Assembly (NCBI GenBank): GCA_947652115.1 | Contig: OX393573.1 | Span: 11,261,981-11,325,980 of the forward strand | Source: Blastomussa wellsi | Lineage: Eukaryota; Cnidaria; Anthozoa; Scleractinia; Plerogyridae | Direction: 5' to 3' | Length of the DNA stretch: 64,000 bases | In this document: piece by piece, positions 7,211 to 61,815 of the stretch | How the letters are laid out: every line of letters begins with the position of its first letter | Position numbering within the stretch: the first letter of the stretch is position 1 | Notes under the pieces: model-generated | Databases searched by the model: none | The model's input: the letters and a program-made list of their open reading frames with translations, nothing else | What the model was told of the DNA's origin: nothing | Translations under genes and position numbers: made by a program

Positions 7211-7390
7211 AGCCAACAGTTACACATCGAAGCTCTTGGTTGGACAGACACATGTTCTGACCATCCTTTGCCAGTTTTTCTTGTTACAATGAATGAGCGA
7301 TCGACTTTTGTACTTAAAAAATGTTAGCAAATATGGCCAATTCATTCTTTTTTTATATATAAAAGAAAAGAAAAAGAGGCCGATCTGTAT

Positions 7391-7482
7391 GCCACCTCGG
7401 AGGTTTGAACTCATGACTACACACCTCGTGAACTCGACTTCGGAGCGAGTAAGCGCGCAGCAAACCACTGCGCCAACCGGCC
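7391..7482 (-). repeat. tRNA-derived SINE head (copy 1)
   Basis: The minus strand begins GGCCGGTTGGCGCAGTGG (A-box-like) and ends GAGTTCAAACCTCC (B-box-like), spaced as in a tRNA with an enlarged middle. The adjoining body (7200-7390) is shared with the second copy near 8780-9070. It is probably a Pol III promoter of a SINE, not a functional tRNA. Confidence 0.6.
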
Positions 7483-7593
7483 AAGCTTAGCAAATGTGGT
7501 GAAAATTTTAGTAGATATAAATACCAAGTTAACTGTGAAGTTCAGAAAGGTCTTGGTAAAGTTTTGGTTTATTTCTTTGTTTCTTTTAGGCAA

Positions 7594-7701
7594 CAACAGC
7601 GATTTGTTTTAAAGTTCGTGATGGCTTTCTCAACAGAAGGATCATAAATTCGACGTGAAACTAAACTCTCACTGATCGGAACGGGCAAACTTCCTCGAGT
7701 A
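7594..7701 (+). repeat. Exon-like repeat unit, copy 1
   Basis: A TTTCTTTTAG acceptor is followed by GCAACAACAGCG, then AAAGTTCGTGATGGCTTTCT, and ends CTTCCTCGA at a consensus donor GTAAGT. It has stops in all frames, so it would be a non-coding or terminal exon. Two further copies (9207-9328 and about 9574-9674) keep both splice signals. Confidence 0.4.
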
Positions 7702-8008
7702 AGTAATTATGTTAACATCATGCTTACGAACAGAGACAGCTCAAGATCTCGATTTCAACCGTACAAACAATATGGCTCTAAATTAATAAGGGTTTGTATG
7801 GGAATTTCGACAAATGATTCATGGAGGTAGTCATGCGGTAAAATTGTTCCATGTGTGTGTTACTTGCTTGTGGTGTGGTTATTCCACCGATGAAAGGCGT
7901 TTTGAGCGATTTTTTTAATTCCCGACGTCGGAAATCTTTCTTCCCAGCAATTCAGTGAAAACGAAATCGCAAGCAAATTATCTACTACTCGAATCAAAAT
8001 TTATCTTA

Positions 8009-8538
8009 GGCCCCATTCATATGGTCTCGGGTACCCGAGACAACCCTCCCCCGGAGATACCCTCTGGGCGGGCTAACTTTTCACTAAAATCTTGAAAAAT
8101 TCCGCCAACCGTTTATATGATCCTACCCGAGTTGTCTCGGGAGGTGAGATAACTCGGGTAGGCGAGTTGTCTCGTCTCGGCAGGCAGGGTAACCCTGGCA
8201 GGCGGGACAACTTTTTCTCATATAAACACTTTGGCTCGCCTGCCCGGGACAACTCTTAACGTGCCGAGTGTCACGTACAGTCCGCATTTAAGGTTTTTAA
8301 GTAAAAAATTGCACTAAATAAATAGAATTTAACCCAGCAAGGCCTCCAGTGATAAACGAAAGAAATTAAAAGGAAGAAGGATAACTGGTGAGTTGAATAT
8401 TAAAATACTTTATGAATAATCAAATAGGGTCAACTTTAACTCAGCTGACAGGGACAATTTTTTGTCACATAGACTCTCGGTAAAGTTGTCTTGGGAAGGA
8501 GGGTTGTCTCTGGTACCCGAGACCATAAAACTGGGGCC
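8009..8538. mobile_element. Harbinger-type MITE with TTA target duplication
   Basis: The left end GGCCCCATTCATATGGTCTC and the right end, reverse-complemented as GGCCCCAGTTTTATGGTCTC, continue as matching TIRs through GGGTACCCGAGACAACCCTCC. TTA flanks both sides (8006-8008 and 8539-8541). The surrounding SINE repeat is present uninterrupted elsewhere (TCTTAAATGGCGACACATG near 6770), so the pre-insertion site is visible in the same window. The 530-bp interior is palindrome-rich (CGGGTACCCG, GTTGTCTCGG) and has no ORF. Confidence 0.8.

Positions 8539-30145: not shown

Positions 30146-30148
<3 letters not shown>
29211..30148. other. Non-coding
   Basis: It contains GGGACGGACCATTAGAAGAG with a G-rich run (29343-29382), which looks like one end of another DNA transposon, and CTTCGGA-rich sequence at 29995-30080. 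No gene supported. Confidence 0.4.
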
Positions 30149-30177
<29 letters not shown>

Positions 30178-30331
30178 CCGTCCAGACGGATAATGCGTCT
30201 CTAGTGTTATGCGTCTAGTGTAAAGACGGGACGAATAACAAGACGAACTTCGACAGACGAAGAATGCGAACCATTTCGCGCGGCGAAATAAAGAGGAATG
30301 AGGTCTAGTTTTTTTGGCGGTAAAATTAAAG

Positions 30332-31591
30332 ATGGCGGCCCTTTTACAACTTGTAAAATTGTTTTCCCGTAAAAGAAGAGCAGAAGAAGCGTTTTTAAGT
30401 CTCCAATATAAAGTAAACGAGGAAATGGCAAGGAAACGTTTCGTTGCAGAAGCGGATTTCGAAACTGAAGCTTCAGAACTCGCTGTTATGTCAGCAATCG
30501 TGATTACAAAAAGCAACAGAAACGAACGAGGTCCAGATGAATTGAGAAACGGAGATTGGTGGACGAACGGATACCAAAACTGGGACGAAGCTTCTTTCAA
30601 GAAAAGGCTGAGGGTGTCTCGAGACACGTTTGAATTTATTCTGGGAGAAATTAAAGACCTTATCAAGAAGGAGCCCACTCGCATGAAACCTCACCCTACT
30701 CCACCTGCTACCCAGTTGGCTTTATGTCTTTACAGACTGGCACATGGGTGTACGTTTTTGACCGTTGGAGATCTCTTTGGGGTTGCAGAATCAACTGCTC
30801 ACATCATTTTTCAAGACGTTTGTAAGGCCATTGTGGGATGTTTGTATGACAGACTCGTTTACCTGCCAAGAAATCTGCAAGAGTGGAGTCAAGAACTGGA
30901 AAATTTTCTGGCAAATTGGGAGTTTCCTTGTGTAGGAGCATGGGATGGATTTCATGTTTACGTCAGCACTAAACTTAAGAACTTTTACAGTTACAAGAAA
31001 AGATATTCTGTGACGAACATGGGATTCATTGGTTACAATAAGCGTTTTATGTGGGCTGCAGTGGGTGCTCCAGGATCCACACATGACTCTAGGCTTTTAA
31101 GAAGTTGTGGTATTTATTCTGAAATAGAATCAGGTCACGTGCTTCCTAACAGGTCTTTGAATCTGGACCCCTATGGGGAGATTCCATTTACTACTGTGGG
31201 TGATTCAGCTTTTCCCAACCACTCCTGGCTTCTAAAGCCATACAAAGAGGGAACAAGAGTAACTAAGCAAAGGTATTTTAACAGGAGACTTTGCTCTGCC
31301 AGAGTAGTCTCTGAACATGCCTATGGAATGTTGAAAGGGCGGTGGAGAATTCTCTACAAAAAAACAGATTGCCATTTAGACAACATTTCCCTCCTCATTA
31401 TGACCTGCATTGCTCTTCATAATCTTTGCATCCACCGAAGTGATCCCTGCAACCCCAGGTGGAGGCTTCAGGTCAATGAGCTCAATCTGATTAGAAATGG
31501 AGATGCCCCAGCTGAAGATGGAAATACAACAAGAGAAGCCATTGCCAATTGGTTGTGGGATATCAGTGAGGAAAGAAATGCAGTTCCTTGA
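30332..31591 (+). CDS. Harbinger DDE transposase (HARBI1-like)
   Basis: The 419-codon protein starts at the first in-frame ATG (30332); the frame extends upstream without ATG. A helix-turn-helix region lies around residues 120-165 (LALCLYRLAHGCTFLTVGDL). The DDE catalytic triad is visible as D205 in GAWDGFHVYV, D291 in GDSAFPNHSW and E328 in SEHAYGMLKGRW. HARBI1-family enzymes cut and paste TIR elements with 3-bp target duplications. They act in the nucleus together with the element's Myb-like protein. The length is normal for the family and there are no internal stops or missing catalytic residues. The gene lies just inside the left TIR. It could be either an active transposase or a recently silenced one. 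Confidence 0.92.
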   Translation: MAALLQLVKLFSRKRRAEEAFLSLQYKVNEEMARKRFVAEADFETEASELAVMSAIVITKSNRNERGPDELRNGDWWTNGYQNWDEASFKKRLRVSRDTFEFILGEIKDLIKKEPTRMKPHPTPPATQLALCLYRLAHGCTFLTVGDLFGVAESTAHIIFQDVCKAIVGCLYDRLVYLPRNLQEWSQELENFLANWEFPCVGAWDGFHVYVSTKLKNFYSYKKRYSVTNMGFIGYNKRFMWAAVGAPGSTHDSRLLRSCGIYSEIESGHVLPNRSLNLDPYGEIPFTTVGDSAFPNHSWLLKPYKEGTRVTKQRYFNRRLCSARVVSEHAYGMLKGRWRILYKKTDCHLDNISLLIMTCIALHNLCIHRSDPCNPRWRLQVNELNLIRNGDAPAEDGNTTREAIANWLWDISEERNAVP

Positions 31592-31799
31592 ATTTGTAGA
31601 TCAAACTAATACCACAGACAAAAACTGAGAAACTGAACTTTACTTGAACCCAAGGCAAACAGGTTATACATTGTTAATAAATTCAAGTTTGAAATTAAGC
31701 ATCATGATTCTTAAAACATATTGTAATCTTCACATTAAGTGTTGATCCCTGTTAAGAAACAATGTTTATTTCATGAGAAGCCCCTAATGTAACTTCTAC

Positions 31800-32885
31800 C
31801 TAATACCAAGTCATGGATGGTTGATCATTCCTGCTATCCATGTCTAAAAAGTGGCTATCTTGGCTACCACTTGCCACTTGATGAGTTGGAGGAGTATGGC
31901 TATATGGCATTGGGTTGTAATACTGAGGAGGTGCAACAGGCTGGACAGGCATTGTTTGTTGTTGAGGATGCTGTTGTACTCCTTGGAATGGAGGATTTGA
32001 ATATTTCATGATGATTTCAAGCATCTTCAGCTCATGCTGCCTATTCAATTCAGCTTGCTCTTTCTGAAAAGAGAGAAATTCAGCGTGCCTTTCTCTGTCT
32101 GCTTCCATCATCCTTTCAGAACGCTTTTGCTGTGATTCTCCAAGAGCGTGAAAACTCTTTGCGATCTCGTTTATGGCCTGGGACTGACTTCTTACTCGTT
32201 TCTTGCGATCTAATGGTTTTACGTCCAATGCAGTTTTCAAAACTTTCCTTTTTACACCTTCGGTTCCACTCTCACTCGTTGAGGTTAAATCTGTCTCACC
32301 ATCCTCTTCCTGATAACCACTATGACTTGTATCTGCCTGCTCTTCGTCGCTGCCTGGGTATGAGTCCACATCGGACAAAACATCACTCGCTTTCGAAGCA
32401 ACTTCCAAATTACCGTGAGTGTCAGACAAAATTGGTTTAATAATTTTGTACCACTCTGGCTCTTCAATTGGAGACTTGCCACTACCTTTCTTGATGCGAT
32501 CCGTATATTTACGCCATTGATCTTTCATCCACTTAAACTTGACTCGAAGCCTTTCAACATCAACTCTCAAAGGAGGTAAATCCTTTTTCGATTTAGACCC
32601 ACGATGTTCACGTTCATTTTCTTCTTTAAATTCTTGTGAGGACATGATTTCCTCGAAGACCTTCTTTATATCCTCGAAGACAGTTTTATTTGCGGTCTTC
32701 TTCAACGCAAGCGAGTCCAGTTTGTAACCAAAGTCGTATTTCTCGTCTGCCAGGACTAAGGCAAGGTACTTGAGCTCTGTTTGTGTCCATTGTCGATTTC
32801 GCGGTTTTGCACTTGCCTTATCACTAGCACCCGCCATGTTGTTTTCTTTGCATACAACCGCTGGCTCTTTCATAACGCGGTGCAT
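31800..32885 (-). CDS. Harbinger Myb/SANT-like DNA-binding protein
   Basis: 361 codons from ATG at 32885 to a stop at 31800. Further in-frame ATGs at codons 5 and 17 could also serve as the start. Residues about 30-150 form a trihelix/Myb-SANT domain (RQWTQTELKYLALVLADEKY at the start, LRVKFKWMKDQWRKY near the end). An acidic Ser-rich linker and a basic stretch follow (KRKVLKTALDVKPLDRKKR). Next is a long charged helix around residues 240-300 (ADRERHAEFLSFQKEQAELN). The tail is rich in Pro, Gln and Tyr. In Harbinger systems this protein aids nuclear import of the transposase and binds the transposon ends. The ORF is intact and convergent with the transposase. Confidence 0.88.
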   Translation of the reverse strand: MHRVMKEPAVVCKENNMAGASDKASAKPRNRQWTQTELKYLALVLADEKYDFGYKLDSLALKKTANKTVFEDIKKVFEEIMSSQEFKEENEREHRGSKSKKDLPPLRVDVERLRVKFKWMKDQWRKYTDRIKKGSGKSPIEEPEWYKIIKPILSDTHGNLEVASKASDVLSDVDSYPGSDEEQADTSHSGYQEEDGETDLTSTSESGTEGVKRKVLKTALDVKPLDRKKRVRSQSQAINEIAKSFHALGESQQKRSERMMEADRERHAEFLSFQKEQAELNRQHELKMLEIIMKYSNPPFQGVQQHPQQQTMPVQPVAPPQYYNPMPYSHTPPTHQVASGSQDSHFLDMDSRNDQPSMTWY

Positions 32886-33115
32886 TTTTTACGTTGTTCG
32901 TCTGCTGCCCGTCTTTATACACACAGACGAGTTATGCGTCCAGTCGAATTATCTTTCGTAATGCGTCGTCCACGACGCATAACCAAGGATAGTTCGTCTA
33001 GACACATAAGTCGTCTTGTGCCCGTCTTTATACTGGAGACGCATAACCAGACAAACTACAAATGTTTGCCCAAATTCGTCCAGACGGATAATGCGTCTCT
33101 AGTATAAAAACGGCC

Positions 33116-34202
33116 AATCACCGTGCTAATCGCATAGTCTCTCAGATAGGTTTTGTGGAATAAAACAAAGAAAGGAAACTGGTAGTAGTCGATGGAAGAT
33201 TAAATAAATAAATTGATTAAGTAGTCAATTAATTGATTGATTAATTAATTAATTAATAATTTTGTTTTAATCACCCAAGCTCTGAGCTCTATTTGCACCG
33301 GCCCTTTTCAGGTGGGCTTATTTTCAAGGAGAGATTATTTATGGTTGTTGCGGGGAGCCTTATTTTCGGATGGAAATTTAGGTTTCAAAGGTGTTTGGGT
33401 TTATAGATTGAAAGGGTACGGTGCACAAATACCACATTTTATAACTCTGAACATAACAATATGAAACCGAAAATACACTCTTCTGACAAAGCTAAAGCAA
33501 GCTCTAAAATGTACGGCTTGTAATCGTTCAGTTCGCTCTTTTATTCGAAACCAGAGCCAATATGATGTTCAAAACCTTACCCGGAGAGACATCATCTAAA
33601 TTCGACCTTTTGATTCCTGCGTCAGCGTACATCCATGTAATATGTCAAAAACTCGTCACGGTAGTGTAGCAGCTCTCGTAGGCTTGTAATTCTACTGGTA
33701 GCAGTTGCTATTGTTTTAGGGGCCTGGGGCATTGTTCCTGTTGTTTGTTCAATAAGTTCTATACTCAGCTTGTACACTTGTCTAGCAATATGAAGCACGC
33801 TCGTGTAATTGAAGTTGGTTACACGAATTTACTAGCTATGTTATGCTATGTTTTGAGTATAACGCATAGCAAAAATAAATCCCAAAGAGCAGAATTTTTT
33901 TTATTTACTTTCATATGAATAGGTAGTAAGTCTAAATTATTAGGCCTTTTGAAACCTTTATATTTTGAAATTACATTTATAACAAATTGAGCTGTAAATT
34001 ATTTTAATTCTTATATTTGTACATACAATATTTTGTATGTTATTGTAAGGATTTACCGTGCATAAATAAGGTCATCGATCTAATCATAACGTTTTCAGGG
34101 ATATCATTCTTCTGTATCCTTGATTTAGCGACACTTAGAATATTTTCATTCTCGTCTATTTTTTTTCTCAAGCCCGGAACCACTGACATGCTAGCTCCCT
34201 CT
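33116..34202. other. Non-coding
   Basis: AT-rich sequence with an ATTA/ATTGATT low-complexity run (33215-33262). No gene seen. Confidence 0.5.
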
Positions 34203-36139: not shown

Positions 36140-39100
36140 GGCCGCTCGGAGATGTGAAATTTCTTTTCTCATGTTGAAACATATTTCACTCGTTCACTGC
36201 GCTCACTTGTGAAACATCTTCCAACACTCGAAGAGAAATTTCACATCTCCGCGCGGCCATGTAATATCCTCTACGTATTGCATTGTATTTAGTATGTACT
36301 GTGGCCGACCTGCATCAGTACTGTCAAGACTTATCAGGCTGATAACCTGCAAGTATTGTTTTGCCTTGTATTGCATATTGCATTTCACTGTTTTGTATCA
36401 CATCCTGTATAAGCACAAGTAGTATAGGTGGCTCGTTTGGAACCTAACCAATCAGGAGCCAGCATACGGCTCAGGTGACAGCTCACGACCAATCAAATTG
36501 CCGGGTTGAATCCAAGATGACCGAAGCTGAATTTTGCATCTCACTAGTGTTTTTTAACCAACCATGAATCAAACTGAATATTCAAGATGTCTGCACGCAC
36601 GTTGTAAAACTCCGTACTTGTGCACGGGGAGCTAACACTAGATTTAAGTGGCCTGGAAAACAACCCAGCAGCCTCGACAGAGTAGTGGGACCGGTGGCGT
36701 AGATTTCCACGGCTATGAATAGATAAGAATCGTTATTAATCAGTATTTGGGTACTTGCAGTGGCATGTGTAGCGGAACGACATAAGTCCTTCCAGCAGTC
36801 GGCCATGACGAAGACAGAGTTGGACCCGAGCGGGTCTTATATAGGATACCACAAAGCCTGCCGGTACTACATGACATCATCGTGAACCAATCAGGAGTCG
36901 CCCACGCCATGAAAACGTAATAAGGTGGCTTTCCGGTCCCCCCCTCCTTAAGGAAGAGCATTAAGCCCCGGGATCCCAGAGTCGTGGGCACTCTTCGGGG
37001 GGTTGGTTACCCCGACTCATCTTTTGATCCCTGACAACTCCGAAATCCTAGGATGGCATCATGAAGGCGCCACCCCCATTCATTGACGCCAGAATGAAAG
37101 AAAACAATAACGTATATACAAAAAACTGGTTATTTTACGATATTTGCACGAGTGTGTGTCTAGGGGGAATACGAGGGAGTTTTGTAGACTGAGCGTATGC
37201 ATGGACGCGAGTGGGTAGGGGAACTATTTACAACTCGCACAAGAGTTCGGCCATCTCCACATCGTGACTGTCCAAATCTTCAAAGGCGGACTTGAAACGT
37301 ACGGATAGGAGCAGAACTTGTCTAAGTCGACCACTCTCTTGTCAAAAACACGGCCGTACTGTTTGGTGCGTGGGGAGACCTTTAGGCGTTTAGTGGCAGG
37401 GTTGTGTGTGAATGTGGATTCACCACATTCATGTTGCGCCTTTGCTCTAGAGGGTTGGTCAACTCTTCCAGTACGTTGCGTTTGACGATGTCGTAGTTGA
37501 GTTGACTGGATCCCCGCACAGATTTGAGAGAATACCCACGGATTATACAACAAACTCTGAATAGTGCTGTCTTGTATCGGCAGTTTTTAGGACCACCGGA
37601 GACGAATTCGGTGATGTAATCACCAGGGTGATCGGGATCGTCCAACTTGCCTGTCATGTCACCCAAACCACAGATGAATGTCGGGTTGTCTGGGTTTCCA
37701 TTTGTACACAACGGAATCAGTATCAAAGTACAAGGTAAGGGTATAGTTTGAGACGAGCCCAAAAAGTGGTGAACGCTACAACGAACTTGTTCCTCTTTCC
37801 GTTGTCTAGGTCGTTGTCTTCCATGTTTGAATAGACGATCTACAGTTTCTCATCTGTACAGATGCATATCGTGTGAATATGCCACAGAAGATTCGACACA
37901 GCCGGGATATAGATGGCCACGGTGGTGGGTTTGTTAATATTTTCTCCGAATTTTCCCCAGAAGGAGTTCAGCATGAGTTTGGCTGTAGCTTTCCTGCCCG
38001 GGTTTTTGACGATGTTGTCGTCCTCTACCTTTATGCCTTCATGCACAGTGTAGCTGTCCTTATACTGCTTTTTGTGCTCCTCGGTGACAACCCAGCATGG
38101 ATAACCGGCTACCTCTTGTTTGATGTTTGACCACTTGTTGACAAAGTTGGCAAAGAGGCCTGTCTTTCTTTGGGCTTGGGGAAAATACCACACCTCATGG
38201 ATCTTGACAATTTGGTATCCCTTCTTGACCGCCTTGACCAGTTCTTGGGTACACCACGTCCCACGGAGCATATGTTCTTTGGAGGTGTGTAGACAATACC
38301 AAGACCTATCTGCAAACTCGTTTGGCATCTCCATCTCAATCCACGTTCTGCAGATGATGGTAGGGAAGTGCAGGGTGGTAAATATCAAAGGGGTGTATGA
38401 CATCAACTTTGGCCCTCATGAAGTAACTGTGGATGTCTTGATCTTTGGGGTGAGTGACTATGGTTGGATGGCCCATTGGGTATTCACCGTATTTATTCAC
38501 CCATGGATACAAGGAGGTCACACCCACATACTTTATTTGCTCCCCTTCTGATGAGTCTATTTGAGAGAAAAGAGTGACAGCGTTGGTACGACCACCAAAG
38601 GAGGCATTTCTTGGTTGTAGGGGGTCTGTTATTTGGATGGTGCCCAAGAAAGTTTGCGGCTCAGGGTCAGTCTTGACACGTGTGTCCCACTCGCACTCCC
38701 AGATGATGGTGAGGGTGTACCCTTGGTTGGAGAGGATGACTTCTTTGGCTCAGGTATTTTTGTAAAGCTTGCCAAAGGTACCATCCAGATGGATTTTGGA
38801 TGATTGCCCTGTCTGGGTAGTAAGTAGGACAGCCGTGCCAAAAGCAACCGTGGAACTCGTAGATGGTGTTGGTGACTTCGTCGTATCCATCCACCAGGTA
38901 CGATTGGGTGGGGGTGAACATGCATACTTCTCCGCCATTTCCCGCATGGCAAATGCGGTCAGCCATAGGCTCGCCAGTCAGAGAAGTAGGATTATTCACC
39001 CTCAGTCTGTGGTCCTGCCACACTACCCATTTGAGTGCCTTGATGGATTGGGTGCCTGCCATGAGAAGGTTCGACGGCAATGGTGTTTTAGGTAACATCT

Positions 39101-42100
39101 TTTTTCTCCAAAAACGGTTGCACGCCGAGGCAATAGTAATACACTTTTCCATTGGCCTGAAGTCAGCGTGCTGTTCGAACTCGTCTTTTCACACCCGGCT
39201 TTTAAGAGCTTGACGCCCGAGACGCAGTACACTTCCGTTTCTTCTTTAAAGTTGAACACATAGTTTGAATGTACTTTCTCAGCATACCACGACTTGAACT
39301 TTGTCTTTGCTTTGGCTGACATCCCCTTCTGGATCGTACATCTCTGCAGGTGGCATGGATTCCACATACTCTTGATTCTCTAGAGTGTTGAAAAGATGCA
39401 GTAAGAAACCCTTGCACTGTTTGGTGCTGCTAAAGGTGGAAGGGAAATGAGAGAGAGGAAAAGGTAGGAAACAGACCGAGTCGACAAATTGGATCTCACC
39501 ACTGGATAGTGATAAATCTTTCCACCCACACTTGGCTGTCCGTGGATCCACACACACCACGGGTCACGTTCCAACCTCGGATGTGGACACCTTTTTGACT
39601 TTTGGTTTGTCATCCTCAGGGTCAACGGGTTTGATGAAACAGTGGTGAGTGGCCAGCTCGACTTGCTCTTCACAAAAAGGGCACTTGTCCCACCCACATC
39701 GATGTCGTTTGTCGCCTGCACCATTCTCGATGTTTGGTTGCAGCGCTGTAAACTTTGTGGCAACTTAGACACTTCTTCGTCTGACACAACGAAGGGGTTT
39801 TTGGGTGCTTGTAAGGTGAGCTGAGTAGCAGGTGTTACCAAAGAAACGACGTACGGTTGCGATGGTGTAGGAAATTGGCCGGCTTGCAGACAGGACAGTC
39901 CTTCTGCCCGCAATAACGACACCATTTGCCCTTGCACGTGTGGTGGTCCATGTCATCGTTATTGTACCCCCAGTTACAGTCATGGCAAAAGTATGATCTT
40001 GACAAGGACCCGCCCATAGTAGTGGTCGTCCACCTTGAGCAGGAGAATCAGTTTTGGTGACGGTGTCTTGCCACTGAAGATGATGCAGTGTGGTTCGTCC
40101 ACCGACATGACATTGATCTGGTAGCCCGGCAGTGCATCTTGGAATTTCTGCAGTTCAGCTAAACTGCAGGGACCTTCGGGTACACCTGCCACCCGGTGAA
40201 GCTCTTTAGCTAGTCTTGTCTGGACAGGGAGACCTTTACAAAGGATTGTGTAGTCGGGATCGGTATGACCTCCCCAAGCATACAGTGTGCAGCATAGGTC
40301 GTCTTTGTTCTTGATGGTGACCACTGATTTCTTTCTGGCCAACAACGTCCCATTGGCCTCTCGACCCGGTCTTTGCTTTTTTCCATGACCACTCCCAGGA
40401 CCAGGTGTACAAATGAAGGTTGTCTCCATAGTGAAGGAGTCGTCCGGGGAGAAGTCCTGGTTTGAATTGAGTTTGGAAGCAAGGGACTGGAGGTTCGTGT
40501 CCAGTCTGTCGCTTCCATCCTCAAACTCGGCCATGGTAAAGGTGGCAGATTGGAAGGGGTGGGTGAAGGCATTAGATTGAAGGGTGAAGTGGATGATCGA
40601 CGAGTGTGGCGTCAGAGTTGTGTCAGCGGTAATTAGAGCCATGATGCTGTGCTGTAACGCCTCTGTGACCTCTTGCCCCAGGTCGTCATGTGGAGTAGCA
40701 ACTCGGCGTTTACATAACTGGGCCTCGAACCACTGTTTGTTTAGGACATTGCGCCAATTTCTCCAGTGTCCCACGGGCTGAAGTTGGAAATCCAACAATG
40801 GCGCACTGCTGACACCTTCACCAACCATTGGAACATCAGCAATCAAATCATCATCATCACCATCGAACATGTACTTGTCAAGTAGAGTGGCTCGATGGCC
40901 TGATTGAAGATCCACTGATCATCGTCGTAATCTTGACGTTTATGTTTGTTGCCGGCATGCACAGCCGGCGAGTGATCGCTCCTAAAAGAGCAGGTCGAAG
41001 CCAGAAGAGATCGTGCACGGGGTCATTGTCCACTTGAGCGGCAAAGCGGACTCAACGAACGAGCTCTTCTCGTCATGCTGACAACTGAAAATGAGTACAT
41101 AAACAACCCTTTGATCCTACAGTACCGCTCAAATGTAAGTTACCACCGTCTCGCGAGAAACGAGACTCGTATCGCGAGAAACGAGACTCGTATCGCGAGA
41201 AACGAGACTCGTATCGCGAGAAACGAGACTCGTATCGCGAGAAACGAGAACTGTCTCGCGAGACATTTCTCGTTTCTCGCGAGTGCACTGCAAGTACCAA
41301 CTTTACGTTGTTGGGCCGAGAATATCATCGAGCGGACACGTGTCGTATCGTTGATTTTTTCGGTGATCGACTTGATCGGAATTTGTTTTGTTGTCTGTTC
41401 GTGCTGGATATCTACATCGGTAGCGCCACGCTCTAGCTTGTATAGTTTGAAACCTCGATTGACTTTATAATTACTTGGTTCATAGCATTCACATGCGAAG
41501 CAAGGCTTCGAACATGTAATCTAAGTAAACTATTTATTCACAATGTGAAGCCGCAACGCTTTTGAACATGAAGCGTCGGTCCTCGATCGACTTTTTATTT
41601 TTGTTCTCTTTTTCAAATGTGAGGTCACGCTTCGAACATTCCGTCCAAGTTAACTCTTCATTCACAAAGTAAAGCCGAAACGCTTTTGAGCAGGAAGCCT
41701 CCACTTATTTTGAATTCACATGCGAAGCCACGCTTCGAACGCGTAATCAAAGTTAACTTTTTACTCACAAAGTGAAGCCGCAACGCTTTTGAACATGAAG
41801 CGTCGGTCCTCGATCGACTTTTTATTTTTGTTCTCTTTTTCAAATGTGAGGTCACTCTTCGAACATTCAGTCCAAGTTAACTCTTCATTCACAAAGTAAA
41901 GCCGCAACGCTTTTGAGCAGGAAGCCTCCACTGATTTTGAATTCACATGCGAAGCCACGCTTCGAACGCGTAATCAAAGTTAACTTTTTACTCACAAAGT
42001 GAAGCCGCAACGCTTTTGAACATGAAGCGTCGGTCCTCGATCGACTTTTTATTTTTCTTCTCTTTTTCAAATGCGAGGTCACGCTTCGAACATTCAGCCC

Positions 42101-45100
42101 AAATTAACTCTTCATTCACAAAGTAAAGCCGCAACGCTTTTGAGCAGAAGCCTCCACTGATTTTGTATTCACATGCGAAGCCACGCTTCGAACGCGTAAT
42201 CAAAGTTAACTTTTTACTCGCAAAGTGAAGCCGCAACGCTTTTGAACATGGAGCCTCGATTGACTTTCTATTTGGTTTTCGTGTTGACACGCGAAGCCAC
42301 GCATCGAACACGTAATCTAACTAAAATTAACTTTTTATTCAAAGGATAATTTCTGGATGATCTTAGACATACATTGGTAATATAATAATGACGCCACTTC
42401 TCCGATCGACAGCGTGGCCAATCGAACTCTTAAAAACAAAACACAAATGCAAAAACTTATAATGTTTCTAAGCATTAGAAGACGAAAAAGTTATTCGCAT
42501 TTTACTGATTTGTAAACTATATAATTCATACTCTGAAGAAAGATGAGCGAAGACGACGGCTGTATTCTACATGTATTTTACAAATCAACCGAACATTCGC
42601 AAAAGGGAGCTGGGAGGGAAATGGCTATCGCAAAGTTTATGATAAGAAACACAATGTTGGTCATGACTTTTACAGAAGTGGTGGCTCCTAAAAGAGCCGT
42701 TTTAGCGTAGTTCTGTAAAAAGCTGGTTTTGAGATCAGTGTCCAGACGCACGGCCTTGTCGCTCAATCACGATCGGCACAACCTTCTGCAAGTGGTTGAT
42801 GTACGTCGTGCACTTCTCAGCCGTCATCCTTGTCTGCCAAAATTGTGTTATCCCGCCGATCAGCTCATCTTTGGTTGTGGGTTTTACGATGGTGCGAAGA
42901 AAGTGCTTTAGTTCGTGCCAAAGTAACTCGATCGGGTTCAGATCGGGGCTTTCTGCGGGGGTCTGAAACCAGTTGATACCATTCTCCGCTATGAAGTTTT
43001 GGGCAAGCTTGCTAGTATGCTTCGGATCGTTGTCCTGCTGAAAGCGGTGACCATCAGGAAAGTGTAACTGGATAAAAGGCATCAATGTCTTTTCCAAGAT
43101 TTCATCGACGAAAAACCGCGCATTCATGTTCCCGGTGAACAGAAGAACCCTGGACGCTCCTCGTTTGGAGATACCAGCCCAGATGTGAACTTTGTAGGGA
43201 TGCTTGGGTCTTCCTTTAAGCTTCGGCTGCTCCCACTTTCTACGAAAGCAGATCTTGGCGTGATTTTCCATGTGAACAGAACATTCATCGGTGAATATCA
43301 CGTCGTCGAACTGCTCATTGTTTTCCATGCACCTCAGGCAGAACGCCAGTCGTTTGACGCAGTTCACCTCCTTTATCAGCTGACAGTACTTTGTGCCAGT
43401 CTGCACCCACAAAAGCTTCTTTCTCAGCCTCTTGATTTTGCTTTCGGAAAAGTCGACGCCGAATTCATTCCGGATCTTTTGTCGAAGTTTCGGTGATGTG
43501 AGTTCGTCATTCTTTTCCATTTCGGCATCGATGAAGTTCGTGATTTCGGGAGTGACAGTCTCGCTTGGACGGCCTGGTGGTGGTGCATTGGCAAATGACT
43601 GCCTTTCCTGGAACCGCCTTAAAAATAGTCTTACACTAAGACGACTTATGGGGCAACCGTCTTGGGCAAGGATTCTTACAATTTGGCTGATGTTAGTATT
43701 TTGATCTCTAAGCTTTACGATTTTTGCTTTTTGCTCATTTGTTAAGCGACCCATGATGTTAAATTGCTCTTACAACAGTAAACGGCAATAAACCAGAGTT
43801 GCATTAGCCGAACAATTCAGTAAGACAACAGTAAAATAAAAACAACCAATGAATGATAAGGATTTTGCGATCCACAGTAAACAATGAGTAAATTTGAATA
43901 TTACACATCCAATGAACGAGCGGATTTTTGATCCTCCGTTCACAATGGCAAACTTAGGAGCCAATCAATGACAAGGAATTTGGATCCGTTTTAAAACAAT
44001 GCTCCTTGCACGCGTACTATAAAAGGGCGCTCCCGTTGAAAAACATCATAGTAATTTGATTACTCTTGCAATCGCTTCCTCTCGAAAACTCACCATCACG
44101 TAAAAATGTCCGCCAGACAGCTATGTCGTCAGACACAACTGCCATCGAAGGCTCTGTTTTATTTTTCCGACGAGGGTAAAACTGGAATTGCTCCCACGCG
44201 GATCATTGTAGAGAAGCATGCAGTTGCAGTTGGCGCAACCGTCACAGTCAACTGGCAGGGGGAACACGTGCTCGCGAAAGTTATTGCACTAAGTGGTAAG
44301 TACAGTTGTATCATACGTAAATATATTTATATCACATATTAAGTAGTGGCGAATGATACTTTATTACACCATCACTTTTATCATTATCCAACCCTTCTAT
44401 TTAAAACTTAGGCATGCCTTGTCGACTTAGCTCTTGCAGACTTCACTGCACGGTATTCCGTTTAACTGTTTCCATTTTTTCATTTTTGGTACAGATGATT
44501 ATCGTGTGTTGAATGAAAAAGACCTCTCCTTCTGTGCCGAAATAACCGGACCGGCCATGACCGATAACCCTGATAAAGAAAACCAGGCACAGACCGCCAG
44601 AAAGAAACCTCGTAAGGTAAGATGAGATTTTTATTGAGCGCGCGCAGAATGATTGTGTTGTACAGTAATTAATAATTATTTAGACAATTAGGTTAATTGA
44701 GGGCAGTTCCGAACGCCTTACAATCTTCATTTTTCGTTTAAGACGTTTTGGGTGTCGTACCTTGGTCTCACGATCCAAGAACTCACAAAGTCCTGTCTCG
44801 TTCTCGCCGTGAAAATGTGCTAGCTCACGGTCTTGCTATGTCTCGACTTTTTTAAGTAACCTTAGTGTAATTTAGCTCAACTTAACTCTTCTCAATTCAT
44901 TTATGCACCATTAACCTCCCCCGTTTAATTATATTTGAACAAACTACATGCTGGTCTAAACTGTGCCGTAAAAACGGACTTGACCGAAATTGAAAGTAAA
45001 TGAAAATGAATGTTGTAGGCTTTCAACTAAGCGATATTTTTTTAAACTTCAGGGAAAGGAAGCAGTGAAGAAGACGCCTGAAGATGGAGAGAAGAATGTC

Positions 45101-48100
45101 GACAGTAAAAGCAAAAAAGGGAAGAAGGTAACTTGAATAGAACATCTGACTAGGGCCCTTTTACATGGTCTTTTAATATCTTTCAAATGCCCGTGAAATG
45201 AAATTCGATTCTTTTGATGAAGTTTGACTAGGGCCTTTTTACATGGTCTTTTAATATCTTTTCCATCTTATGCCCGTGAAATGAAATTCGATTCTCTAGA
45301 TGAAGTTTATTATTAAGTTTTTGTAAAATTGCCGCTCGTCTCTATAGAACTAAAAAAAGTTGTCATCGTTTAACAGTGGAACGATCTGACGGAATCTAAC
45401 TGATACTAAATCAACATACGTTGTTATATCTTTGACAGGATGAATGTAAGGTCCTCCTTTCCGTGGACCCAGTTAATGAGGCGCCACTTGAAGTGACGAT
45501 TGAGCAGGAGACTGCCGCCCGTAACCAGCCTTATCCGTCTGACTTTAGGACTATTATAACGGTCCCTGCATCGCCTCAACCAGAAGCAGTAGAAGTGTCG
45601 CCATCGAGACCATCATCTACCCCGAAGCCTGCAGCCGTCAGTCCTATTAAAGCCTCACAGCCGCTAAGGCGTTTCAATGACCAACTGAGCTTTTTGGACG
45701 ATATCCTCGAAGGTGAAGATGTCTCTCTGCATAAAAAGCTAGACAAGGTGCTAGAAAACCAAAAGGTTCTTTTTAAGTTAATCGCGGACTTAATGAAGGG
45801 AGGGAGAGAGCATAGGGGTAAGGATTTCAGTCAGAGTTTAGGGGATGTTTCAAACATGGAGCACGAGGTAGGGAAGGGGATAGCAGGGTCTAGTGTGGGA
45901 AGTCAGTCGGGGGTTTACGATGATGTTTCAAACGTGTTTAGAGGGTCAAATTATGTTGTAGCTTCAGACGGCATTTCAAATACGGGGAAAAATTATGTTT
46001 CTAGGGACAATTCAGGGGGTGACAGTCAGGATAGGGCTCTAAAGGATAATTCAAACGCTACGGGAGGGACAAGTACAGGGCCAGATTATGTTTCTGGGGA
46101 CCAGTTAAGGGGTATTAATCAGCATCGAGTTTTAGGGGATATTTCAAACATTGTGGGGACAAATTATGTTAACGTGGACCATTTGGGGAGTAGTAATCAG
46201 CATAGGGAAACTAATCTTTCACGGGAACAGTCATTTGGGGAGGAGGGAGGGCAATTTATGGGGGAGGCATTAGTTATAAAACGTGCAAGCTGTAGTGTGG
46301 GGAATTTCGCTGCAAAGTTTTTAACCGTAGTTTTTAAGTCAGACGAATTAGTTAATCGTAATTGTACTGGGACTAGGGGGAAGATCGCTCTGGACCCTGG
46401 GAAGATGGCGCTAATAAAGAAATACGTTTTTAAGTTGTATCCGTGCGCCCCAACACAAGAGGAGTCAACGTGGAGGAAGTGTGTGGTGGCCATAGATGAG
46501 TTTTTGCGAAGGAAAAAGCGGGATGGTGTGCGGGGGCGACAAGATTAACTAAGGTTCAGTTTTAAGAATTATGCATGTACTTTCAATTTGCCTCAAGAAA
46601 CCTGAGAACTTGTGTATAACTTTGGTAAGTCGGGATTTGAGCGCGCTCAATCGTTGTTATCGCTGCTTTAGAGGATTATTTTTATGACCAGATATATGCA
46701 TGTTATTAAGAAAACAAGTATTCTAAAAACTAGCTAAACGAAACTCGTTTATTTATATGCAAATGCAGTAATAAAATGCCGTAGTGTGTGTTAAACAATG
46801 TGTGCCAATTCTTTATTGCTCCATCCTCTAGTTTTGGACTATTTCAGCGTTTGAATCATCCAATTGTGCCAAATAGAACGAGAGATATCGAATACTTCGC
46901 CGGCATGCCGTAAAATTTCAAAGAGCTTTTTGAATTGTCTCACCAGCGCGTGCCGAGAGCAAACTTTTCCCTGTCAAAAATTGAAAGAATGCTAACAGCG
47001 CATCTAAAGAACTTCGATAATACACTCTTTCTGTAAATTTGGACTGTTTCAGCGTTTGAATCATCCAATTGTGCCAAATAGAACGAGAGATATCGAATCC
47101 TTTTCGAAGCTCGCCGGCATGTCGTAAAATTTCAAAGAGCTTTTTGAATTGTCTCACCAGCGCGTGCCGAGAGCAAACTTTTCCCTGTCAAAAATTGAAT
47201 GAATGTTAACAGCGCATCTAAAGAACTTCGATAATACACTCTTTCTGTAAATTTGGACTGTTTCAGCGTTTGAATCATCCAATTGTGCCAAATAGAACGA
47301 GAGATATCGAATCCTTTTCAAAGCTCGCCGGAATGCGGTTAAATTTCAAAGAGCTTTTTCAATTGTCTCACCAGCGCGTGCCGAGAGCAAACTTTTCCCT
47401 GTCAAAAATTGAATGAATGTTAACAGCGCATCTAAAGAACTTCGATAATACACTCTTTCTGTAAATTTGGACTGTTTCAGCGTTTGAATCATCCAATTGT
47501 GCCAAATAGAACGAGAGATATCGAATACTTTTCAAAGCTCGCCGGCATGCCGTAAAATTTCAAAGAGCTTTTTGAATTGTCTCACCAGCGCGTGCCGAGA
47601 GCAAACTTTTCCCTGTCAAAAATTGAATGAATGTTAACAGCGCATCTAAAGAACTTCGATAATACACTCTTTCTGTAAATTTGGACTGTTTCAGCGTTTG
47701 AATCATCCAATTGTGCCAAATAGAACGAGAGATATCGAATACTTTTCAAAGCTCGCCGGCATGTCGTAAAATTTCAAAGAGCTTTTTGAATTGTCTCACC
47801 AGCGCGTGCCGAGAGCAAACTTTTCCCTGTCAAAAATTGAATGAATGTTAACAGCGCATCTAAAGAACTTCGATAATACACTCTTTCTGTAAATTTGGAC
47901 TGTTTCAGCGTTTGAATCATCCAATTGTGCCAAATAGAACGAGAGATATCGAATACTTTTCAAAGCTCGCCGGCATGCCGTAAAATTTCAAAGAGCTTTT
48001 TCAATTGTCTCACCAGCGCGTGCCGAGAGCAAACTTTTCCCTGTCAAAAATTGAATGAATGTTTACAGCGCATCTTAAGAACTTCGGCCGCCAGCGATTG

Positions 48101-51100
48101 CCGTGAAGTGTCTTTCGTCGTCTCGTCGGTCGCCATACACATGGGAACTGGCTTCTTGCGAGTAATATATTCCATACTAAACGCTTCAGTGATTCTCGAG
48201 AGAAACGAGAACCTTCTCGCGAGAAACGAGACTCGTCTCGCAGGAAACGAGACTCGTATCGCGAGAAACGAGACTCGTATCGCGAGAAACGAGACTCGTA
48301 TCGCGAGAAACGAGACGAGAGGTGGTAACTTACATTTGAGCGGTACTGTATATACTCATCAATTATCACGTGTGCATTCAATTACAAAGTACTTTTACTG
48401 GCACGCTTCACCTGGTTAAAAAACACTTTTTACATGCATGTAATTAATTATGGGGATGTGGCTCAATGGTAGAGCGTATGCCTTGCAAGCAAAAGGTTGT
48501 GGGATCGAAAAATTACAATTTATTTTTACATTAGGTCTACACGTGGTTATGTCCTAATAAAAGTCTTCCATAACCATTCGTATCACTTCCACTTCAAGTG
48601 TTTCGTTTTTAAGATTAGACCACTTCATTCGGGAACGAAATTTAAAAATAGCTGTGACTTAATTAAATGGTTAGAGGGGGTAAGTTTCTAAAGAAACTGT
48701 AGTGCTGCATTGGTGGAAAGTATAGCAAGATAATTTGCTTTAACAACTGGGTTGAAAATGTGAATTGGTCACCGTAAAGAGACTTGAAAGCTGATGTTTC
48801 AAGCGTTAGTCCTTCGTCGGAGCGAATCGAGGAATTGTGGGTCGTGTGTGGTTTATATACAGAAAGATGGAGCTACGCTATTGGTTGGTGCCTGGTAACG
48901 TGAAAAACAACAGAATAAATTAGTTGAATGAAAAGCGTCCGTTGATACCGTGAGAATTAAGAGTGCCAATTTGAAAAATAAATTTTAGCTCTAGAGTTTT
49001 GCGACTTTTCGTGCTTCCTTGATGAAGGGAAAGGCCGCAGACTGCCATATGTTGCTTAGAATGATTGGGGAGATTAAAGTGTCTCGCGACCTGCTTGATG
49101 CATTTTTGTTGTCTTTCTCTACGTCACAAAGGTGTTCTCGGAATCAATCGCCTAGTCGCCTCCCTGTTTCGCTGATGCATAACTTTTTGCAAAGAGTGCA
49201 AGTTATGCAGTAGATCACATTGGCTGAGGTACAGGTAAAATGATCAGTGATCTTGATGGATCGCTTTGGACCCGATATTTTATCAACGTTGTGAATGAAA
49301 GGACATGTTTTGCATTGTGCGTGAATGCATTTAAAAGTTCTGGGTTGATCACTTGTCTGGAATGCACTTCTGACTAAAAAGTTACCTATGTTTTTGTCAC
49401 GTTTGAATGAAATTAATGGACGTTGCAAAAAGATTCTACCAGTATCAGGATCATTTTGAAGTAATTTAAAGTTTTTTAGAATGATGGATTTTACTGCGTG
49501 GTTGTGAGGGTAAATGGAATTCTATCATTGTGACATCTTTGTGACGTTTGTAGTTTGTAGGGTTAGCTCCCCGTGCACAAGTACAGATTTTTACAACAAG
49601 CGCGCACGCATCTTGAATATTCAGTTCGATCCATGATTGGTTTACAAACACTAATGAGAAACATAATTCACCTTCGGCCATCTTGGATTCAATCCAGCAA
49701 TCTGATTGGTCGAGAGCTGTCACATGTGCTGTATGCTGGCTCCTGATTGGTTAGGTCCCAAATGAGCCACCTATACTCCTAGCACATTAAAAAATAATTG
49801 GGGTATCTTTTATTCCCCAGCTGGTAAATATATAGACCCCATGCACAAATAGCTTCCATTTTTGAGTTGGTAATTAATTCAAATGGGGCTAATTTAAATA
49901 CACACAAAAGGATTTAAAATTGCCAGCTATTTATGCACAGGGTCTATAGTACCAAAATATTTGCTAAATAAGTATGCAGTACATACCTTTCTTCAACCTT
50001 TGGATGTTTCAGAATTTCATATAGAGTAAACGACAGCTGGTTTGATGTTGTTTCTTGTCCTGACAAGCAAGGCATTTACAAATTATTAGTTTTGGAATGA
50101 AAGATAAAAGGGAAAAGTCAATTGTCTACTGACCATGGGTATGTAGGTGAAGAGTCTTACATCAGAAATGGATGAATATTGATTAGTAAATTTTCAACCT
50201 CTGGATAATGATTTTCTAGCTTTCTGATTGGTTCCCTCCATTATGGATCTGAGCCATTATCCTTAAGTTGACCAACTATGGGAAAACGATGAAAAAGGAT
50301 GCAAGAAGAACTCAGAAGGACTCAGAGTAATTAAACATAAAAAGCACTTTCTAGTTAAAGCGAATAAGCAAACTCTACCACAAAGCAAAAAAAGTTGTAC
50401 GCGAAACATTTAATTGTATTAAAATGCTTGTAAAACTACAACAAAATGAGTAAAGCGGCATTAACACAGCATTCGAGGGAAGATCCGAAAACCAAATCTA
50501 TTTTCCCAAAACATGAAAATTCTGTTAGTTTGTTACCTTTTGCTTGGACAAGAGCACAATAACATGTTGAAGACGAAGCGGCAAATTTTTGTGATGTCCG
50601 ATTATCTTTATCTTTGAAGATCAATGTCCCTCTCATTCTCCATCAGTTATAATATGTGCAGTGATTGACAGATTGTTTTGTCCTTTACGTCAGAGGGATT
50701 CTCGCCTTTAGTTCAATGCAGTTATTAAATTTTCAGTCAGATGATCAACCACAAGATCGAGTAGGCTAGACAGGTAAATATATGCCTGTTTTGACTTGTA
50801 CAAGAAATGCAATGTTCAGCTCCGCAATAATTTTGGATCTTCCCATTAACCAACATCGTTTACCTTGATTTTCAATGAAAGGGAAACCTTTACAATTAGA
50901 AGTGATTGAGCCTAGAATATTTAGAGAGTCACTTGCATTTAAAAATTCCTATGAGTATAATAACCAGAGTTGAAAATTTATCAAAGCAGTTATTCTTCTC
51001 AGACTGGCTGGATATGAAATGAAATAACCAACTCAGCCTACAGCCTCGTTGGTTATACATGTATATGTTAGCTCATATCCAACGTGTCCTCGAAGGATAA

Positions 51101-59740: not shown

Positions 59741-60089
59741 TGTGAAAGCGCCGGATGCTGGGTCGCCTATAGAAAAGGATCGGGTTAATATTCCTGAACG
59801 GGAACAAGGATATTGCCACCTGGTGGCAGGTGTGGCAACGCAACCGAACCCGGTGGACAAAAGACATTTTAAGTCACGCGTCACGCAATTTAATGCGTAG
59901 TTTTCTGCAGAGAATCGGATTTCATTTTTGATTGACAGTTATTTTATTGTGTAATTCGCACGCGGTCAGGGTTTTTTAGTGTCGGTACCGTAGACGTCGC
60001 TAGAGTCTAGAGCAATGGAAAAGCTAGGGAAACCGTGAATTAAACCGTGAGTTTACTGTTCTGAATTACCGTTTGTTGTCTACGCAACA
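59741..60089 (+). repeat. BEL/Pao 5' LTR (tentative limits)
   Basis: A TGTGAAAGCG start and a TACGCAACA end would give a TG...CA LTR directly before a primer-binding-like TGGCGACCACG (60093). The 3' LTR lies outside the window, so the left limit cannot be checked. Confidence 0.4.
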
Positions 60090-60092
60090 TTT

Positions 60093-60110
60093 TGGCGACC
60101 ACGAAGAAAC
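60093..60110 (+). other. Putative primer binding site
   Basis: TGGCGACCACGAAGAAAC begins 3 bp after the proposed LTR end. TGG-initial sites are complementary to tRNA 3' CCA. The tRNA is not identified. Confidence 0.35.
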
Positions 60111-60183
60111 CGTTTTGGAGATTTACCGTACGCAAGCACACTGTGGTAAGCTTGAAATTTCATTTGTGTTCTTGCCGTTCAAG

Positions 60184-61815
60184 ATGCCTGATCCGGCTGG
60201 TGTTGAAGAAACTGGCGGCGAGGATTCTCCGGGAACCGAACAGACCGACAACAAGGACGATGAAGAAAAACTGGAAAGGGAAAAAACGCTTTTGAAGCTG
60301 AAAAAACAAAAGCGAACACGAAAAACCGAGATGACAAAAATTCGCCATCACATCGAGAAGCTTTGTATCACGCCGAAGGATTCGCCGAAGGACGTAGGCG
60401 CTATAGAGAAAGATATCGAGCAACTTTGGTCGCTTCTGGAAATCACACTGGAAATTCTGGACGAATTGTGTGTTGTTTATTTGGAAAATGGAGAAGAAAC
60501 GAATAAACAGGCGGCTATGGAAGAAGGACAAGCGCTCGAATCGGAAATTCAAGCTGCTATTGAAAAAGCACACGAGGCCGTGAAATCACACGCTCAAATT
60601 TCTGTCGCGACTGCTTCGAACAAATTCGTCGCTCATCCAAGTCCGCCGATCGTTTTGCAGGGTTCGCTCAACCCAGCTTCGCCTCCACCGCCTTCCCAAA
60701 GTTCTCACAGCAGTCAAGAAGAAGCAGGAGTCCCTGAAAGCCCGCCAGCCAGTCATTCCTCGAATCATCGCCTGAAGCCATTAAAAGTGCCGTCGTATGG
60801 TGGAGACAAGACGAAATTTGAGGAGTTTTGGGGGCTGTTCGAAAGTCTAGTGGACCAGTCCAAAGAACCAGTGAATCTAAAAATGGCGAGATTGAGGCAA
60901 TGCTTGTCCGGCAGCGCACTAGAGGCAATCCGAGGGCTTGGTGTTTCAAAACCAGAATATGAAGAAGCCAAGGAAATCTTGATAGCCAAGTTCGGCGGTC
61001 AGCGGCGGCAACTGCGGGCCTACATGGATCAGCTGGAAAAAATGCCACAAATGAGAAACAACGACGTTCAGGGATTTGAAAAGTTTGCAGATTTAGTACG
61101 GATTACGGTGGTTAAGCTCAAGGCTGAGGGTCGTGATGGAGAGCTTGGAGAAGGAACACTGCATAGCTTGTTAGTGAAGAAGCTTGCCGAAGCCCATGTG
61201 CAAGGGTACAGCCGTTGGTTACAGGAACAGGGCCGGGAGCGATCCGTTCTAAGCTTAAAAGATTGGCTTAAAGAGGAAGTACGAATTCGAGTGGAAGCTA
61301 TGGAGATGGCACATGGCTTAACTGTGGTAGAGAAAACGGATGGATGGCAACCTTCAAACCGAAATCCAAATCGACACAAGCCCCGAAACTTTCACGTCAA
61401 ATCAGATTGGTTAACCCGAACCAGGAGACCGCCAAGCTCAGGCCAGTTTACCCGTAAGCCACCTTGTTCGTGCTGTGGCTCCCTGAATCATGGAGTATGG
61501 GCGTGTTTAGCATTCCAGCAGAAGAGTTATGATGACCGATGGCAGCTGGCTAAAGACAAACGATTGTGTTTCCGGTGTTTAGCAGGTAATCACCAGGGAA
61601 AAGCCTGTACGAAGTCGCAAACGTGCCAAATTGATGGTTGTCGGGGGAACCACCACCGTCTCTTGCATGAGAATCAACCTGTTACAGACCAACCCATGGG
61701 GGCTGCTCCGCCAGTGGTCGAAACTAACAGTTACCCGTCATTTACTCCATGGGAAGGGGCAGTTGGCCTGCTTTATCACCCGAGGGAGAGGACAGTCACC
61801 CCTCGTGTTCGATGA
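60184..61815 (+). CDS. BEL/Pao retrotransposon Gag
   Basis: 543 codons from the first in-frame ATG (60184). The frame is also open upstream to 60073 but has no ATG there. The N-terminal 150 residues are charged coiled coil (KTLLKLKKQKRTRKTEMTKI). A Pro/Ser-rich linker follows. Next is the DUF1759-type Gag core at about residues 195-385 (KVPSYGGDKTKFEEFWGLFE). Two CCHC knuckles follow (CSCCGSLNHGVWAC and CFRCLAGNHQGKAC), then a further Cys/His segment. Gag forms the particle that packages the element's RNA. The ORF is intact. Its stop TGA overlaps an ATG that opens pol. Confidence 0.88.
   Translation: MPDPAGVEETGGEDSPGTEQTDNKDDEEKLEREKTLLKLKKQKRTRKTEMTKIRHHIEKLCITPKDSPKDVGAIEKDIEQLWSLLEITLEILDELCVVYLENGEETNKQAAMEEGQALESEIQAAIEKAHEAVKSHAQISVATASNKFVAHPSPPIVLQGSLNPASPPPPSQSSHSSQEEAGVPESPPASHSSNHRLKPLKVPSYGGDKTKFEEFWGLFESLVDQSKEPVNLKMARLRQCLSGSALEAIRGLGVSKPEYEEAKEILIAKFGGQRRQLRAYMDQLEKMPQMRNNDVQGFEKFADLVRITVVKLKAEGRDGELGEGTLHSLLVKKLAEAHVQGYSRWLQEQGRERSVLSLKDWLKEEVRIRVEAMEMAHGLTVVEKTDGWQPSNRNPNRHKPRNFHVKSDWLTRTRRPPSSGQFTRKPPCSCCGSLNHGVWACLAFQQKSYDDRWQLAKDKRLCFRCLAGNHQGKACTKSQTCQIDGCRGNHHRLLHENQPVTDQPMGAAPPVVETNSYPSFTPWEGAVGLLYHPRERTVTPRVR

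Follow-up and report, generated by a model that had tools for sequence, protein, structure and literature searches.

In the 64,000-nucleotide stretch of the Blastomussa wellsi genome analysed here (contig OX393573.1, positions 11,261,981 to 11,325,980; called the window, with positions counted from its first letter), we identified a Tc1-type transposon of 7,229 bp, at 41120-48348, that contains two genes. We show that its terminal inverted repeats (TIRs), its TA target-site duplications (TSDs), a DD34E transposase and an intron-bearing BEN-domain gene make up one unit that moved whole. By analogy with TnpA of Spm, the BEN protein probably acts as an accessory factor by binding to the ends of the element. 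The coordinates of the different features are collected in Table 1.

Two genes inserted as a single unit

An inverted-repeat search pairs 41118-41147 with 48321-48350, 30 nt that are 100% complementary and correspond to a 28-bp TIR plus TA on each side. At up to 3 mismatches the 28-bp TIR occurs at two places in the window, the two element ends (0.00 expected), and the perfect TIRs (28/28 bp) and TA duplications around 7.2 kb that had been proposed from the sequence are therefore real; about 2 kb of this length is made up of the two minisatellites. We searched the genome of 368 Mb in 124 contigs with both proteins. Among 98 transposase matches, partial copies included, there is one other near-full-length transposase of the family (98% identity, residues 1-324), and among the 16 matches to BEN exon 4, partial copies again included, one other full exon (97%). 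They sit together on C9, at locus L009, an element of 7,026 bp that has both genes and is bounded by TA on each side and by TIRs carrying 1 and 0 mismatches. Its proteins are 97-98% identical to those of the window copy; its BEN gene has all three introns with identical GT/AG boundaries and stays open when spliced, and in its transposase one extra base near the end alters the last residues. This is the second copy with the same TIRs around both genes that the original prediction had called for.

When the flanks of L009 are joined over a single TA, the 300-nt query finds full, equal-length matches at C9:18362301-18362600 (99%), about 2 kb from L009, and at C8:8360989-8361288 (98%), two sites judged element-free from the length and identity of the match rather than from their letters. 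These matches indicate that the target belongs to a repeat whose copies at these two places are free of the element, and that the whole two-gene unit was inserted at once. The alignment of empty sites, which had also been proposed, therefore succeeded for L009. For the window copy it gave none: the joined flanks have 8 matches, two of which are the locus itself and six of which are short, none crossing the junction. L009 and its element-free sites rule out chance TIRs, or two unrelated insertions flanking a host BEN gene. A single-copy host BEN locus is ruled out by the exon 4 matches, retained among 33 candidates: six are 91-100% identical (two of them full length) and the other ten 29-51%. 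In a side comparison of the two full copies, the intergenic promoter shows 0/351 differences, against about 2.5% in introns 1 and 2 and 0.6% in intron 3; the zero divergence of the promoter may reflect either constraint or gene conversion.

Table 1. Features of the Tc1-type element, in window coordinates
Feature	Position	Strand	Support
Left TA target-site duplication	41118..41119		Inverted-repeat search; 13/13 further complete copies also TA/TA
Left TIR, 28 bp, CAGTACCGCTCAAATGTAAGTTACCACC	41120..41147	+	Genome-wide TA+TIR 30-mer: 123 forward, 122 reverse exact
Left subterminal 21-bp array and edge; seven TCTCGCGAGA-type sites (0-1 mismatch)	41147..41284	+	
227-bp minisatellite, 3.4 copies	41487..42258		
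DD34E Tc1-type transposase, 339 aa, intact	42735..43754	-	Pfam, open reading frame
Divergent intergenic/promoter region, 351 bp; TATAAAAG upstream of BEN gene (by eye)	43755..44105		
BEN gene exon 1	44106..44295	+	Exon 1/2 junction supported by P0143 and L009
BEN gene exon 2	44495..44616	+	L009 keeps splice sites
BEN gene exon 3, lysine-rich	45053..45127	+	L009 keeps splice sites
BEN gene exon 4: predicted helix, low-confidence linker, C-terminal BEN domain	45439..46548	+	
214-bp minisatellite, 5.9 copies	46833..48086		
Right subterminal 21-bp array and edge; five TCTCGCGAGA-type sites (0-1 mismatch), same sense as left array	48194..48316	+	
Right TIR, 28 bp, perfect complement of left TIR	48321..48348	-	
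Right TA target-site duplication	48349..48350		

The transposase and the BEN protein

The transposase matches Pfam DDE_3 (5.1e-15) and HTH_32 (2.6e-8), its catalytic residues D156-D241-E276 have the DD34E spacing, and the closest solved structure by sequence is that of Sleeping Beauty (5cr4, E 9.7e-17). The enzyme is intact, as had been described. The four BEN exons, separated by GT-AG introns throughout, join into a single frame of 1,497 nt encoding 498 amino acids and a stop. The alignment of the annotated Montipora capricornis protein P0143 across the exon 1/2 junction, together with the conserved introns and open frame of L009, supports the divergent four-exon structure with in-phase junctions that had been predicted. 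When the open reading frame (ORF) of exon 4 is scanned, the BEN domain PF10523 scores 39.8 bits (5.2e-10) for a cut-off of 23.2; a helix is predicted at residues 97-120 of the exon translation. The domain has the BEN fold, with structural-alignment identities of 22% to BANP and 32% to BEND3, and two basic stretches, RNCTGTRGK (from 436) and IDEFLRRKKR (from 481), would match the loop and the final helix with which BANP contacts DNA. No relative turned up in scans of viral and prokaryotic contigs.

Copies and derivatives

The exact TA+TIR 30-mer occurs 245 times in the genome and the same pattern read backwards, used as a control, 0 times, which establishes the family. Among the first 100 places listed there are 27 facing neighbour pairs, 0.7-4.1 kb apart except for one of 18.8 kb. 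A search with the left-end DNA gave 40 distinct places at 92-100% identity (the best 40 of 463 candidates), as well as weaker opposite-strand matches of the repeats at these places. Twenty loci were fetched by their coordinates, 10 through transposase matches and 10 through left-end matches. Both ends lie within the fetched stretch for 12 of them, one end for six (L010, L015, L019, L021, L024, L027) and no end for two (L013, L014). With L039, 13 complete copies are known beyond the window, all between TAs and all with different flanks. Of these 13, L009 alone has both genes complete. Parts of both survive in L011 (3.2 kb), L039 (2.5 kb) retains just the end of BEN, and the remaining ten keep part of the transposase at most. 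Many of the fetched derivatives still contain parts of the 214-bp minisatellite array.

CGCG palindromes at the element ends

Directly inside the TIRs lie tandem repeats of 21 bp (41147-41263 on the left, 48196-48316 on the right) centred on TATCGCGAGA/TCTCGCGAGA. The original prediction had mentioned neither these arrays nor the two minisatellites. In the excerpts available of PMC10206803, TCTCGCGAGA is the chromatin-immunoprecipitation motif of the BEN protein BANP, the core obtained with BANP on protein-binding microarrays is TCXCG, and BEND6 has also been solved on CGCG DNA. At up to one mismatch TCTCGCGAGA has 12 matches in the window (1.04 expected), all of them within or at the edge of the arrays. 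The two ends have 29 (in 153 bp) and 23 (in 131 bp) TC[TG]CG cores; the 6,889 bp of the interior have 24, and the 56,767 bp outside the element 154. The motif is present at both ends of all 12 complete copies in which it was counted and between the ends in none, and repeats specific to the family adjoin both TIRs.

These observations are consistent with the following scheme. The transposase would bind the 28-bp TIRs and cut and paste at TA, as other Tc1 transposases do, while the BEN protein, with its N-terminal domain, predicted helix and C-terminal BEN domain, would bind the TCTCGCGAGA-type sites inside the TIRs; as 21 bp is two helical turns, these sites would fall on one face of the DNA. 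The BEN protein may thereby coat or pair the ends of the 7-kb element, contribute to assembly of the synaptic complex, or protect or open the ends. When abundant it might repress, as TnpA does for Spm, and a derivative that still has its TIRs and arrays would be mobilised in trans.

The BEN protein could instead act on the host or on transcription, by opening chromatin, repressing the transposase or shielding the element from silencing, and have no part in the transposition reaction. The available text of PMC10206803 describes the recruitment of chromatin factors by BEN proteins and the regulation of genes by BANP through a TCTCGCGAGA-type motif, and that of PMC2613891 ascribes a suppressor role to Spm TnpA itself. 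This explanation is nevertheless unlikely, given that the motif lies at the ends only, with none in the promoter between the two genes (which has one bare TCTCG core, by eye), and that it is kept in derivatives without genes.

Diverged families with a BEN or BEN-like gene

A second family has the same layout. Its element on C8 (C8:15608320-15614784, 6,465 bp) has 41-bp perfect TIRs inside TA, which share CAGTACCGCTC with those of the window family. Its transposase is degraded, with identities to that of the window family of 57% and 64% in the two best pieces and 37% in an N-terminal piece. Its BEN ORF, divergent to the transposase, is 29% identical to the window BEN protein and scores 44.1 bits in Pfam, and an upstream exon resembles the N-terminus of P0143 (1.8e-5). 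AACGCG/CGCGTT has 14 matches in this element (a palindromic site being counted twice), 4 of them within 400 bp of the left end, 10 within 400 bp of the right end and 0 between. The diverged BEN gene is thus accompanied by a different CGCG palindrome. The right end has 11 matches to ACGCG/CGCGT, for a maximum of 5 in 300 shuffles of the whole element, and repeats beside the TIR are clear at this end and limited to two sites at the left end.

Families A, B and C, whose transposases are 44-48% identical to that of the window, were picked as single-gene controls. They failed as such: all three extend for kilobases beyond the transposase, each with an exon like the N-terminal domain of family A (the profile used includes the family A row itself, so that its E-value in family A carries no meaning). 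The family A element (C1:18956964-18963946, 6,983 bp, TA/TA) and family C have a BEN-like domain on the transposase strand, split at the same place by an in-phase GT-AG intron and scoring 21.4 and 20.1 bits, below the Pfam cut-off. In family B no BEN was found within 8.4 kb, and retrotransposon-like ORFs (by eye) fill 6674-8399 of the stretch. Two family A copies (L042/L043) are 99.97% identical over 3,019 bp, which likely indicates recent movement or activity; four places with equal-scoring open transposases were seen for this 7-kb Tc1-type family.

We compared the ends of the Tc1 families that bear BEN or BEN-like genes, and of the likely PIF/Harbinger element also present in the window, for their CGCG content. 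In the terminal 250 bp versus the interior, CGCG per kb is 22.0 vs 2.67 in the window family, 16.0 vs 1.17 in the C8 family and 24.0 vs 1.7 in family A. The end palindrome differs with the family, being TCTCGCGAGA in the window family, AACGCGTT in the C8 family and TTCGCGAA-like in family A. This suggests, tentatively and with a little less than an even chance of being right, that a lineage of large Tc1-type transposons, in this genome and its relatives, has become a two-protein system in which the BEN protein reads CGCG-centred palindromes beside the TIRs and has changed from family to family along with its sites.

Several observations weigh against these interpretations. With regard to the arrays, 10 of the first 20 loci were picked for a similar left end, and in those the right end alone tests array retention freely. 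L015, apparently an older relative (71% in transposase pieces, 75% in BEN exon 1), keeps the 21-bp period at its right end but has TCTCGAGAGA there, without CGCG. The link to a known motif was made after the repeats had been seen, and a tandem array repeats one and the same motif; a shuffled 21-bp unit matches at 0-1 mismatch in 168/200,000 cases, a rate that should be multiplied by the small number of known BEN motifs. The two unrelated minisatellites of the element indicate that tandem repeats there need no protein. The Harbinger element of the window shows a milder CGCG excess, 3 in 500 bp of ends vs 1 inside. In the C8 element, one AACGCGTT site per end (two in total) lies inside the TIR, the left end is unexceptional (4 ACGCG/CGCGT matches, for a largest value of 5 in 300 shuffles), and a further BEN fragment of the C8 type lies outside the element, about 1 kb left of the TIR (L040 ~1537-1924, C8:15607136-15607523), where it is the remains either of a neighbouring copy or of a tandem duplicate. 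On the protein side, the nearest BEN domains in sequence are those of BEND3, whose motif is CCCACGCG in the excerpts of PMC10206803, and BANP is absent from the results of sequence searches with the BEN protein. Finally, the ratio of non-synonymous to synonymous change (dN/dS) of the BEN gene between the window copy and L009 is 1.17 (3 synonymous, 12 non-synonymous changes).

Origin of the BEN gene: possible cargo, and single or repeated capture

The dN/dS check had been proposed across copies and was run on the two full ones. It gave 0.255 for the transposase (6 synonymous, 6 non-synonymous) and, with 3 + 12 changes, no constraint on BEN at this depth; as so few changes separate the two copies, it was dropped as evidence of selection. 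Among library proteins conservation is higher in the BEN domain than in the linker (93/103 vs 97/129 residues identical to P0121), an observation that was likewise dropped as evidence of constraint, because the library holds predicted proteins, i.e. open frames only, and is biased in this respect. A BEN tree of 37 rows was built from the window protein, 28 of the 46 library BEN proteins and 8 loci, leaving out L034 and L035 (near-copies of L038 and L036). In this tree the BEN protein of the window clusters with library sequences, and L030 (C12:5882500-5889000) is placed just outside (87/83). L030 has a BEN ORF of 284 codons with a BEN domain 52% identical to that of the transposon, and no transposase was found within its 6.5 kb; it is a candidate host relative or domesticated copy. 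The BEN gene of the window was likely once a host gene.

The original prediction left open whether the BEN gene is captured cargo or an accessory factor. As cargo it would be a real passenger without any role in transposition. The existence in the same genome of L030, the retention of introns, a BEN dN/dS of about 1 and the intact ends of derivatives that have lost BEN all agree with this reading. We nevertheless consider it distinctly unlikely, and recent host cargo is the less likely since the pairing with BEN recurs in the C8 family, with a transposase as diverged as the three pieces compared above, and BEN-like second genes, albeit scoring below the Pfam cut-off, are also present in two Tc1 families that are more distant still. 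Unconstrained cargo is not expected to last so long. The family-specific CGCG palindromes at the ends also argue against cargo, and the accessory factor is therefore the favoured alternative.

The recurrence could also be explained if separate families had captured different host BEN genes independently. In the tree the C8 BEN joins L032 rather than the window family (84/75, weak), and the two genes are divergent in the window and C8 families and tandem in families A and C. Such convergence is rather doubtful, since in this tree long branches meet and 16 of the 34 forks are open, and since the sequence given above is common to the window and C8 TIRs.

Relation to known systems

Tc1/mariner elements are usually 1-2 kb long and have a single gene, a trait that is typical rather than defining and that is absent here. 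The element resembles Tc1/mariner (IS630-Tc1-mariner) transposons of the Tcb2/Sleeping Beauty-like DD34E type by its DD34E domain, an N-terminal helix-turn-helix, a TIR starting CAGT, the TA duplication and its many internally deleted derivatives; it differs from them by its size, its second, intron-bearing BEN gene and its 21-bp subterminal arrays. It shares the two-gene layout of PIF/Harbinger elements, which have a DDE_Tnp_4 transposase instead of the DDE_3 and HTH_32 domains found here, a Myb-like partner protein and a 3-bp TSD. The likely two-gene PIF/Harbinger of the window (30148-33116, 35-bp inverted ends, 97%) has a DDE_Tnp_4 transposase at 30314-31591 (+) and a second ORF at 31800-32885 (-) without Pfam match.

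The TIR and TSD of Spm/En are unrelated to those of this element; CACTA TIRs begin CACTA, whereas the TIR here starts CAGTACCGCTC. The likeness to Spm/En (TnpD and TnpA) lies in the association of a transposase with a separate protein for subterminal repeats. According to the passages available from PMC2613891, the subterminal repeats recognised by TNPA act in cis to determine excision and transposition; TNPD, the putative transposase, is described as required together with TNPA, and the proteins that bind the subterminal repeats of CACTA elements are considered likely to vary in parallel with those repeats. In the present element the second protein has a BEN domain and would bind such repeats. 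As described in the excerpts of PMC7325037, the ciliate TBE/Tec elements also have a Tc1/mariner-related DD34E transposase in a multi-gene element; they have three ORFs, with a site-specific recombinase in Tec, and no BEN protein is mentioned in these excerpts. Because of these relatives, the multi-gene layout alone is not new. BANP and BEND3 share with the second protein the BEN fold and, in the available parts of PMC10206803, an association with CGCG-containing DNA, and differ in being host transcription factors of low identity to it. In the open PMC literature, with Repbase and subscription journals outside the search, no title or abstract among those listed describes a Tc1/mariner element with a BEN partner; the term BEN domain occurs in PMC5704228 in the references only and is absent from PMC10027918. 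A BEN partner with candidate end sites thus appears to be new. The coral miniature inverted-repeat transposable element of PMC2872659 was rejected as a match, being piggyBac-related in the text available.

Other features of the window

A tRNA-like sequence (by eye, not called by ARAGORN) adjoins the insertion at about 48453-48500; part of it recurs at C8:11949517 (92%, 50 nt), and it is perhaps a short interspersed element. A type-B DNA polymerase fragment (DNA_pol_B_2, 7.8e-11) at 37840-38406 is perhaps a Polinton relic. The ORF at 60073-61815 has a DUF1759 match (2e-16) and presumably resembles a BEL/Pao-type gag.

Implications

Tc1/mariner is the standard example of a one-protein transposon. 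A lineage with a second DNA-binding gene, matching-looking sites and near-identical copies makes the acquisition of an accessory subunit testable, as well as whether such a subunit enables the element to carry 7 kb. It also links the CGCG-reading proteins of the BEN-domain family to a mobile element, and offers natural protein/site pairs for studying how BEN specificity changes. If the end-binding role is true, this would be another independent case of a separate end-binding subunit, beside TnpA of Spm and the Myb-like protein of Harbinger, and elements of this kind would be a possible source of the host CGCG-binding BEN transcription factors.

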